This document shows positions 1,992-6,091 of a DNA stretch of 42,743 bases, piece after piece. The stretch's first letter is position 1. Each line of letters opens with the position of its first letter. Location: assembly GCA_028867275.1 (NCBI GenBank), contig JAGWGU010000011.1, positions 1 through 42,743 of the forward strand, given 5' to 3'. A model generated the notes under the pieces. That model did not search any database. It was not told the origin of the DNA and saw only the letters and a list, made by a program, of their open reading frames with translations. Source of the stretch: Nitrososphaerota archaeon. Lineage in GTDB: Archaea; Thermoproteota; Nitrososphaeria; Nitrososphaerales; Nitrosopumilaceae. The position numbers and the translations under genes are program-made.

Positions 1992-3125
1992 ATGTGTACA
2001 AGTATGACACAAAATGAACGTGAAATCAAAGGAAAAGAAATCGCCTCACGACATGATCTTACAAGAATCAGCGATAACCTCTATCATGTCAAATCACAGA
2101 CTACTGATAAAGAATACAACGTTATCAAAACTAATGACAAATGGATCTGTAACTGTCCTGATCATACATTCAGACAAGTATGTTGCAAGCACATTCACGC
2201 AGTAGAATTTAGTTTAAAGATAAGAGAAGAAGTCAAAGAGAAAAACAAGATAACAATTCAACCAATTACAATAGATTCGTGTCTATTCTGCAAGTCAAAA
2301 GAGATCAAGAAGTATGGAATCAGACACAACAAGAATTATGATATTCAAAGATTTGTTTGCCAAGATTGCCATAAAACATTCAGCGTAAACATTGGTTTTG
2401 AAAAAATGAAGCATGGTCCTAAAGGAATCACGACAGCTATGCAGTTGTACTTTAGTGGAGAGTCGCTAAGGAATGTTTCAAAATCATTGAAGCTGATAGG
2501 AATGGATGTTACTCATCAAACTGTGTATAATTGGATCAAGAAGTACACAGAATTGTTAGGAAAATACATTGAAGGAATTACACCACAAGTAGGCGATACA
2601 TGGAGATCAGATGAACTATTCCTGAAGTTTTCTGGAAATATCAAATACATGTATGCATTACTTGATGATGAAACCAGATACCTAATTGCTCAACAAGTAG
2701 CCAATACAAAATTCAAGGAGGATATTAGACAACTATTCAGAGATGGGAAGAAGGTAGCAGGGAAAAAACCCAAAGTCTTGATTACTGACGGTGCAAGAAA
2801 CTTTCATCAAGCTTACATGGCTGAATACTGGACTAGACCATTAGAGACTAGGACACAGCATATTAGCCATATTCACTTCAAGCGAGACATGAACAATAAC
2901 AAGATGGAACGATTGAACGGAGAGATTAGACATAGAGAGAAGGTAGTAAGAGGTTTGAAGAAAGAAGATTCGCCTTTGATAGACGGATATCAGATATTTC
3001 ATAACTACATTAGACCACATGAAGGACTGGAAGGTAAGACACCATCAGAAGCTTGTGGAATTAGAATTAATGGACGGGACAAATGGAAAACTTTAATTCA
3101 AAATGCAAACAAAAGCCTACAATGA
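1992..3125 (+). CDS. IS6-like DDE transposase with SWIM and zinc-ribbon domains
   Basis: The 377-residue protein has a SWIM zinc finger at residues 53-67 (CNC, then CKH), a zinc ribbon (C97/C100 and C123/C126, RFVCQDCHKTFS) and an IS6/IS240-type catalytic core. Likely catalytic residues are D207 (WRSDELF), D266 (LITDGARNF) and E306 (NNNKMER). The C-terminal FHNYIRPHEGL block is typical of the family. The start could be ATG 1992 or ATG 2004; an A-box (ATTTAAATAATTTA) ends near 1978. Nothing suggests inactivation. It divides the RHH pair (-) from the coupled ORF (+). Confidence 0.9.
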   Translation: MCTSMTQNEREIKGKEIASRHDLTRISDNLYHVKSQTTDKEYNVIKTNDKWICNCPDHTFRQVCCKHIHAVEFSLKIREEVKEKNKITIQPITIDSCLFCKSKEIKKYGIRHNKNYDIQRFVCQDCHKTFSVNIGFEKMKHGPKGITTAMQLYFSGESLRNVSKSLKLIGMDVTHQTVYNWIKKYTELLGKYIEGITPQVGDTWRSDELFLKFSGNIKYMYALLDDETRYLIAQQVANTKFKEDIRQLFRDGKKVAGKKPKVLITDGARNFHQAYMAEYWTRPLETRTQHISHIHFKRDMNNNKMERLNGEIRHREKVVRGLKKEDSPLIDGYQIFHNYIRPHEGLEGKTPSEACGIRINGRDKWKTLIQNANKSLQ

Positions 3126-4227: not shown

Positions 4228-4515
4228 TTATTTTGGTTTGTTACATTTTGGCAGTCTTCCATGTTCATACTGGAATGCCGTCAATTGTTTTTCTTCTTCA
4301 GCCTCTGGAAATAAAGTCTCATGATAACAAAATGCGACTGTGTCCCTGATGCATGAATCCGTTGAATTCAGGTGCTCTCTCAGTCTCTCCTGGATGTTGT
4401 TGCTTGCACCAATGTATGTTGTTTCATGCTCTGAGCCAAGAAAATACACTCCTGCCTTGATTGGAGCCTTGTCTATGGTTTCTCTGTTAAATGGTGTCCA
4501 GTCAGAGTATGACAT
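4228..4515 (-). CDS. GIY-YIG domain protein
   Basis: This 95-residue protein consists of a single GIY-YIG fold. AGVYFLG (about residues 21-27) corresponds to the GIY strand, TYIGASNNIQERLREHL to the YIG motif plus the helix with the catalytic-type Arg, and the C-terminal acidic EAEEEKQL to the conserved Glu region; it ends LPKCNKPK. GIY-YIG proteins are usually endonucleases or DNA-repair factors. Stand-alone copies of this size exist, but their substrates are mostly unknown. The start ATG is at 4515. Confidence 0.8.
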   Translation of the reverse strand: MSYSDWTPFNRETIDKAPIKAGVYFLGSEHETTYIGASNNIQERLREHLNSTDSCIRDTVAFCYHETLFPEAEEEKQLTAFQYEHGRLPKCNKPK

Positions 4516-4949: not shown

Positions 4950-5028
4950 AGCCAAGAAAGGCTATGACATTAGCCTTGGAATAAAACTCCTAAACCGCCC
5001 AAGAATGGTGCTGATAATGTCTACCTAA
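4950..5028 (+). promoter_or_regulatory. Fluoride (crcB-type) riboswitch
   Basis: Stem 1 is GGCT (4960-4963) / AGCC (4972-4975) around the 8-nt loop ATGACATT. CTAAACCGCC (4989-4998) is the conserved middle segment, then GGTG (5007-5010) closes a second helix with CGCC. CTGATAATGTCTAC (5011-5024) is the conserved 3' segment. Loop bases GACATT (4966-4971) are perfectly complementary to AATGTC (5016-5021), the signature pseudoknot. The layout matches the Thermotoga petrophila fluoride aptamer. CCAA/TTGG (4952-4955/4976-4979) extends stem 1. A possible A-box (TTGTAAAAAG, about 4919-4928) would start the RNA near 4950. A CrcB gene lies in the downstream operon. Confidence 0.85.
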
Positions 5029-5049
5029 TGGAAATTAAATGGGTAGACA
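5017..5049 (+). promoter_or_regulatory. Start-codon hairpin, proposed expression platform
   Basis: GTCTACC (5019-5025) pairs perfectly with GGTAGAC (5042-5048). The hairpin contains ATG 5039-5041 at the base of its 3' arm. GTC 5019-5021 is also used by the riboswitch pseudoknot, so the two structures exclude each other. Fluoride binding would open the hairpin and expose the start: a translational ON switch. The pairing is seen directly; the mechanism is inferred. Confidence 0.6.
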
Positions 5050-6091
5050 AATGAAAACAAAAATTACAAAAAGAAAAACTTGGTCGGGAGATGAGAAAAC
5101 TATGTCTGGTAATCAATTCTACACTTCTTCACTATGTTTTACAATTGCATTGCTAGTTCTAGTTGCAAGTCCAGTGTTGTTACAGATTATTGCGCCACAA
5201 GCTTCTGCCACGGTGCAAATTGTCACAATACCTTATGGTGCATTTGATCCAAACTTTAACACAGCAGCACCACAGTGGTATCTGCCATCTGCAACCACGA
5301 TACAAGTCAATCAGACTGTCACATGGGTGAACCAAGATACTGAAGGACACACAATTACAAGTGGAAAAGCAGGAGGAAGGGAAGGACTGATACAAAACAA
5401 CATGGGTCAACCATCAGGTCTGTTTGATAGTGGTACCATCAAACCAGGTAAGACTTGGTCATACACATTTACAAAACCTGGACAGTATGAGTATTTTTGT
5501 ACAATACACCCATGGATGGATGGGTACATTATAGTAAATGAAAATCAGCCTGATCCAACTGATGCAGATGGTAAAAAGCTTACACAGTTTCCACTAGTTC
5601 GCCTGACTCCTGACAGAAGATATGAGGCAGATCTTACTTGGGAGCCACACTATATTATGACCGGACACAAAACCATATTTGTATTCCAATTCTATGACAA
5701 TGTAATGCCACATCCCATACCTGCACACTATGTATTTACAATCACACAAAATGGAAAAGAGCTCTTCAAATCAGAAGACAGGACTCAGTTTGGAGGAGGC
5801 TACAACTATTTCCGTTTTGATGAACCAGGACCAGCTATCTTTAGGTTTGATGACATTGACAATTCTGGCCAATCTGTGCAATATTCTACAATTGTAGAAC
5901 AAATGAATTCAAGTTCTAATGTGGGAAACATGGCTGGAATGGATGACATGGTCCAGCCTGCAAGAAACATGGTGTTGCAAGATTACCTCATACCATTATT
6001 TTTCACTCCCGCATTAATTACAGCTGGAGTGGTTGTGCTTCTTGTCAAGATACGAAAAAAGAAACCACAGGAGAGAAAATACATACAATGA
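5039..6091 (+). CDS. Membrane-anchored cupredoxin, first gene of the fluoride operon
   Basis: The 350-residue exported protein has a basic N-terminus and hydrophobic signal (residues 32-58, ending PQASA). A type I copper domain follows with likely ligands H104, C154, H157 and M160 (FCTIHPWM). A second beta-rich domain, a Met-rich linker (NMAGMDDM) and a C-terminal membrane helix (about 315-336) with a basic tail complete it. Such domains carry electrons or store copper outside the membrane. The start at 5039 lies in the riboswitch hairpin; ATG 5051 is an alternative. The stop overlaps the next start (ATGA). Its place with CrcB under fluoride control is unusual. Confidence 0.85.
   Translation: MGRQMKTKITKRKTWSGDEKTMSGNQFYTSSLCFTIALLVLVASPVLLQIIAPQASATVQIVTIPYGAFDPNFNTAAPQWYLPSATTIQVNQTVTWVNQDTEGHTITSGKAGGREGLIQNNMGQPSGLFDSGTIKPGKTWSYTFTKPGQYEYFCTIHPWMDGYIIVNENQPDPTDADGKKLTQFPLVRLTPDRRYEADLTWEPHYIMTGHKTIFVFQFYDNVMPHPIPAHYVFTITQNGKELFKSEDRTQFGGGYNYFRFDEPGPAIFRFDDIDNSGQSVQYSTIVEQMNSSSNVGNMAGMDDMVQPARNMVLQDYLIPLFFTPALITAGVVVLLVKIRKKKPQERKYIQ

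Follow-up and report, generated by a model that had tools for sequence, protein, structure and literature searches.

Terminator-type fluoride riboswitches of the RF01734 class (crcB motif) are described from Bacillus cereus and Thermotoga petrophila, where a hairpin that overlaps the pseudoknot of the aptamer serves as the terminator, and the concept of a 'linchpin' base has been set out for this class (PMC11077080). A translational fluoride riboswitch has been reported in archaeal hyperthermophiles (Speed et al. 2018, AEM 84:e02306-17, cited in PMC11077080). Two further systems bear on how a riboswitch can act on genes further downstream: in Mycobacterium tuberculosis, the leader ORF controlled by the ppe2 B12 riboswitch feeds the downstream gene by termination-reinitiation (PMC11260477), and in Haloferax and Escherichia coli 13 of 14 tested gene pairs with ATGA overlaps showed strict coupling (Huber et al. 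2019, PMC6728339).

The locus reported here lies in a 42,743-nucleotide stretch of archaeal DNA that is referred to as the window. In common with the B. cereus and T. petrophila switches it has the aptamer, the pseudoknot, crcB as the controlled gene and a hairpin that competes for the 3' strand of the pseudoknot; unlike them it has no U-tract, its hairpin abuts a start codon, its host is an archaeon and the operon behind it encodes surface proteins. The switch of Speed et al. (2018) is likewise archaeal, translational and fluoride-inducible (the last two being predictions in our case); the text that cites it mentions neither leader ORF coupling nor a surface-protein operon. With ppe2 the shared element is a short upstream ORF under riboswitch control combined with termination-reinitiation, here predicted; ppe2, however, is a bacterial B12 OFF switch, whereas ours would be an archaeal fluoride ON switch whose leaders stand in about 20 loci before several types of effector. 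The overlaps are those of the ATGA/TGATG gene pairs (PMC6728339), which are ordinary genes with measured coupling, while here they are joined to a riboswitch. The RF01734 class and translational archaeal examples are already known; what is new is a predicted translational start-site platform, backed by three-way covariation and joined to predicted coupling through leader ORFs or an operon.

Of the Rfam models, RF01734 alone reaches its gathering threshold in the window, and its match covers the full model (Table 1). The conserved CUGAU and CUAC core is present together with P1 and the 6-bp pseudoknot, and the conserved segments are AAACCGCC (4992-4999) and CTGATAATGTCTAC (5011-5024). An earlier note, made from the letters of this DNA, had recognised a fluoride riboswitch in an archaeon with a complete aptamer signature and a perfect pseudoknot, and had proposed the Rfam search; that search and the comparisons below bear out each of these points, every element lying where the note had placed it. 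For comparison, riboswitch loci were gathered from 400 genomes of the order (85 of them positive) and from nearer relatives, and 87 loci with the core AT(A/G)ATG(T/C)C were kept; many are closely related and close relatives are over-represented, so that all counts given here refer to non-independent events. Weak RF01734 matches in three further loci (L044/L045 in genomes G046 and G048, and L103 in G252) were taken by eye as chance and excluded, and two weak matches (13 bits) in the host genome were disregarded. Across 57 distinct relatives, P1 and the pseudoknot together have 99.8% of cells paired, and the aptamer presumably binds fluoride with Mg2+. Over 87 unique upstream sequences, the best-matching TATA-like hexamer mostly begins at -33 to -29 relative to P1; given this position, and that of the box in the window, the transcript is predicted to start at or just before the aptamer.

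Table 1. Features of the fluoride riboswitch locus in the window and of related loci elsewhere
Feature	Position	Strand	Basis
TATA-like box TTAAAA	4931..4936	+	29 nt 5' of first P1 base
Fluoride riboswitch aptamer	4951..5030	+	RF01734, full model 1-64, 38.7 bits (gathering 34), E=2.4e-7 (cmscan)
P1 hairpin GGCT-ATGACATT-AGCC	4960..4975	+	Arms 4960-4963/4972-4975, loop 4964-4971; 100% paired in 57 distinct relatives, two-sided changes at 2 pairs
Pseudoknot 5' strand GACATT	4966..4971	+	Helix 2: 99.7% of cells paired; A-U to G-C two-sided change in 23/57 sequences
Pseudoknot 3' strand AATGTC	5016..5021	+	Final four bases common to the hairpin
Hairpin 5' arm (switch strand) UGUCUACCUA	5018..5027	+	Minimum-energy fold, covariation
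Hairpin 3' arm UGGGUAGACA	5040..5049	+	Minimum-energy fold, covariation, chance-tested in 87 loci
ATG of the earlier note	5039..5041	+	3' edge of hairpin loop; non-conserved, probably not the start
Gene 1, membrane/surface cupredoxin, 346 aa	5051..6091	+	PF00127, E=3.5e-10 (search with the longer frame opened by 5039); start placed by conservation
Gene 2, secreted PEFG-type protein, 204 aa	6088..6702	+	PEFG motif, C-terminal TM (both by reading the sequence); Pfam gave no match
crcB (Fluc fluoride channel), 128 aa	6699..7085	+	PF02537, 77.7 bits
DUF190 protein, 104 aa	7082..7396	+	PF02641, E=1.9e-21
Island loci L034/L035	G018:C37:52000-80000		
Island loci L036/L037	G020:C57:24000-52000		
Loci of families f9 and f10	L051, L055, L067, L071, L073, L075, L078, L086, L093-L096, L099, L100		

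Immediately behind the aptamer, the seven pairs between GTCTACC (5019-5025) and GGTAGAC (5042-5048) that had been pointed out before are present, and they form part of a longer hairpin of 10 bp. The hairpin appears in the minimum-energy fold of 4951-5065; the segment 5016-5056 folds at -13.1 kcal/mol against a mean of -3.4 for shuffled sequences (z=-5.8, none of 200 shuffles as good), and a search for the pattern GTCTACCTA-N8..16-TRGGTAGAC finds a single instance in the window and zero in 100 shuffles. In 79 of the 87 loci the downstream stretch holds a complement to the switch strand that is significant by dinucleotide shuffling (no more than 10 of 200 shuffles as good); 67 of them reach at most 2 of 200, and most of the other eight have a similar hairpin if loss of the first pair or a bulged base is allowed. 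Two-sided changes at six hairpin pairs amount to 46 cells in the 57 distinct sequences, compared with 22 in shuffles and no more than 16 in slid controls; compensatory arms include GTCTACTCA/TGAGTAGAC, GTCTCCAG/CTGGAGAC and GCCTACC/GGTGGGC. Since the 3' arm of each locus was picked by its complementarity, these pair counts are biased towards structure, and the fair test of significance is the shuffle test rather than the pair count.

The stem takes up four bases of the pseudoknot (5018-5021) together with U5022, a somewhat wider overlap than the three bases (5019-5021) from which mutual exclusion had been proposed. U5022, in its contact with A5014, would be the equivalent of the fluoride-locked linchpin base of the bacterial structures. 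The most telling position is base 5020 of the switch strand: its changes go along with changes in the pseudoknot loop and also in the hairpin's 3' arm. Written as loop/switch strand/3' arm, the triplets are GAC/GTC/GAC in 38 loci and GGC/GCC/GGC in 24; G-U pairs bridge the remaining 17 (GGC/GTC/GAC 5, GGC/GCC/GGT 5, GAC/GTC/GAT 4, GAC/GTC/GGC 2, GAT/GTC/GAC 1), and no locus among the 79 violates both alternative pairings. A base with two covarying partners implies that one strand serves two exclusive helices; the pseudoknot and the hairpin are, on this comparative evidence, mutually exclusive, as had been predicted. The alternative hairpin thus adjoins a start codon and would be incompatible with the ligand-bound aptamer, which is the arrangement expected of start-site sequestration.

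Our preferred reading, to which we assign a probability of about 0.8, is that of an RF01734 translational ON switch heading a four-gene operon, with termination-reinitiation leading on to crcB and DUF190. When fluoride is absent, the strand 5018-5027 would leave the aptamer and pair with 5040-5049, and the resulting 10-bp hairpin, ending right before ATG 5051, would block ribosome loading. When fluoride is bound, the switch strand would be retained by the pseudoknot (4966-4971/5016-5021) and by the A5014-U5022 contact next to it, the hairpin would be prevented and gene 1 would be translated; ribosomes would then proceed via genes 1 and 2 to crcB and DUF190 by termination-reinitiation at the ATGA overlaps. 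Many relatives have, in place of gene 1, a short leader ORF whose end lies on or beside the start of the effector. The blocking step in particular is putative for the Nitrosotalea ribosome, as the start adjoins the stem rather than lying inside it and the Shine-Dalgarno-like element, a short GGT(A/G) in the 3' arm, is weak. A search of the host assembly for 16S, from which the anti-Shine-Dalgarno sequence would be read, gave no match.

The alternative that survives best, unlikely as it is, is transcriptional attenuation, whereby the hairpin would stop or pause the archaeal RNA polymerase before the gene. Its geometry resembles that of the B. cereus and Thermotoga switches, in which the pseudoknot-overlapping hairpin is a terminator (PMC11077080). 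However, a run of five T within 15 nt 3' of the hairpin, corresponding to the U-tract of the terminator type, is found in 0 of 79 loci, which speaks against termination; the hairpin is tied to the start codon at short spacing, and the reading frames of the leaders described below are preserved as far as the effector start, which would be unneeded under termination control. With the hairpin so near the start and no such T run, the translational platform suggested in the earlier note is the likelier of the two.

A translational switch raises the question of which start codon it regulates, and here the earlier interpretation needs to be amended. It had placed the start at ATG 5039, enclosed by the hairpin. 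A start-proximal hairpin and that ATG do exist, and ATG 5039 is in frame with gene 1 and located at the 3' edge of the loop; a version of the mechanism in which the hairpin hides ATG 5039 itself and ATG 5051 plays no role is nevertheless slightly less probable still than attenuation. The triplet at this place is ATG in just 10 of 79 loci, compared with ATA in 16 and AAT in 17. ATG 5051, by contrast, sits outside the stem, 2 nt 3' of the hairpin's GGTAGAC, and an ATG follows the 3' arm by 0-5 nt in 59 of the 79 loci, most commonly by 2 or 3. In N. devanaterra there is ATA at the 5039 place and ATG at the 5051 place, followed by a homologous N-terminus (MKTKITKRK). From the conserved ATG behind the hairpin and the variable triplet at 5039 it follows that the predicted regulated start codon is ATG 5051. 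What the note had observed is therefore confirmed, and its interpretation stands in part, with the start moved to 5051 and the stem extended; the predicted operon coupling, the leader-ORF design of relatives, the second copy in the genome and the multi-copy islands, all described below, had escaped it. That the inverted repeat is instead a DNA operator for a transcription factor, overlapping by chance an aptamer that works otherwise, is very improbable: nearly perfect and conserved as the repeat is, G-U pairs are common where its arms differ (9/57 at pair 1, 10/57 at pair 4), which is expected of RNA and favours RNA pairing over a DNA palindrome, its loop varies from 3 to 39 nt among related loci, and its switch base also changes in step with the aptamer loop.

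In the window, the genes behind the switch overlap by ATGA at all three junctions (gene 1/gene 2, gene 2/crcB and crcB/DUF190). RF01734 characteristically stands before fluoride-resistance genes such as crcB, antiporter or enolase genes; here crcB is in the same operon as the riboswitch, and in most Nitrosotalea genomes crcB is located within about 2 kb downstream of it. A type-1 copper site (H, YFC, IHPWM) is apparent in gene 1. Taken together, genes 1 and 2 look like the halves of one 517-aa protein linked to a fluoride riboswitch in another genome (G020:C57:25220-26773). Just upstream of the operon lie a fragment of an IS-type DDE transposase (66-422) and a transposase that seems to be full-length and has a SWIM-like zinc motif (CxC...CxH) at its N-terminus (1992-3125); a small GIY-YIG domain protein (PF01541, PF24348) adjoins the operon on the reverse strand (4228-4515).

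A related layout is found in about 20 loci in which the ATG behind the hairpin opens only a leader ORF of 13-61 aa. The stop of the leader falls within -8/+3 nt of the start of the next gene in 16 of 22 loci, compared with 3.65 expected from shuffles, in a test that has weak power for short leaders. If crcB is taken to start at an in-frame ATG further upstream, three more leaders (L008, L015, L021) come into this range; for L036_41537 a second ATG has this effect. The effectors behind the leaders comprise crcB, a CPA2-type antiporter and a HAD-like protein (both assigned by eye), TFB and an AsnC/Lrp-like protein. The riboswitch precedes an antiporter-like gene in L001, L046, L066, L009, L002 and L003; in the first three a 13-aa leader ends in TAATG or TGATG, directly followed by that gene. 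The L007 leader appears to join the N-terminus of the cupredoxin, in frame, to the final residues of gene 2 (GNRVK, then ATGA), as though a deletion had preserved the path of the ribosome. The stop/start overlaps that mark termination-reinitiation are present both at the ATGA junctions and at the leader ends, and we infer that the operon and the leader loci are coupled in this manner.

Two genomes of Nitrosotalea relatives, G018 (JASHNR01, JOPF002) and G020 (JASHOW01, JOPF033), carry 7 and 8 riboswitches, respectively, in each case clustered in some 20 kb of a single contig. The genes of these islands encode a complex-I/hydrogenase-like membrane complex in which no NiFe ligands are visible, TFB, AsnC/Lrp-like proteins, ferredoxin and DUF190, as well as a second enolase (four other genomes searched have one) and a HAD phosphatase, neither of which is directly behind a riboswitch. 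Enolase, formate-hydrogenlyase-type and HAD genes are known companions of fluoride riboswitches (PMC11139923). Directly before a TFB gene, encoding the archaeal general transcription factor B, stands a riboswitch with a leader ORF of 47 or 30 aa in L035 (6819-7961; G018:C37:71818-72960) and L036 (3048-4233; G020:C57:27047-28232), which suggests a tier of fluoride-induced transcription. It is possible, although we hold this only tentatively, that in ammonia-oxidising archaea the riboswitch often gates its effector not directly but through a ribosome-delivery leader. Such a leader, be it a freely varying short ORF or the eroded remnant of a surface-protein gene, would conserve nothing but its end on the effector's start codon; this unit would have multiplied into the two islands, whose riboswitches would also drive alternative TFBs, making up a two-tier fluoride regulon. 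A second, unrelated platform, putatively translational, occurs in a different lineage (families f9 and f10): in most of 18 loci CCGCTCGC within the aptamer core can base-pair with GCGAGCGG ahead of the start codon, typically with at most 4 of 100 shuffles as good; this pairing would be expected to displace P3 and not the pseudoknot.

The host belongs, by a scan of named genomes, to the genus Nitrosotalea, which includes N. devanaterra and N. bavarica and consists of obligate acidophilic ammonia oxidisers (PMC5767755). Its genome has a second riboswitch (L038, G000:C24:1-5107), heading genes for a secreted protein of 392 aa, crcB, DUF190 and an MFS-like transporter (DUF190 and the transporter assigned by eye), and N. 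devanaterra has the same arrangement as the window. No paper linking fluoride riboswitches to Nitrosopumilus was found in the literature searched; judged by title and abstract, papers on Nitrosotalea with fluoride or riboswitches hold nothing on the present subject, and the N. devanaterra genome papers make no mention of fluoride or crcB.

To our knowledge, archaeal riboswitches with a comparatively supported mechanism are few. The present platform can be read base by base, with a single nucleotide covarying with both of its alternative partners, and a fluoride-inducible translational switch with leader coupling could serve as an archaeal genetic tool. Because N. devanaterra is in culture, experimental tests are possible. 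Riboswitches are carried by 28 of 37 Nitrosotalea genomes compared with 16 of 213 in the remainder of the family (Fisher p=3e-18, relatedness ignored). This enrichment may reflect HF stress at low pH; it fits the chemistry of HF entry under such conditions, and fluoride would then be an overlooked stress in acid-soil nitrification.
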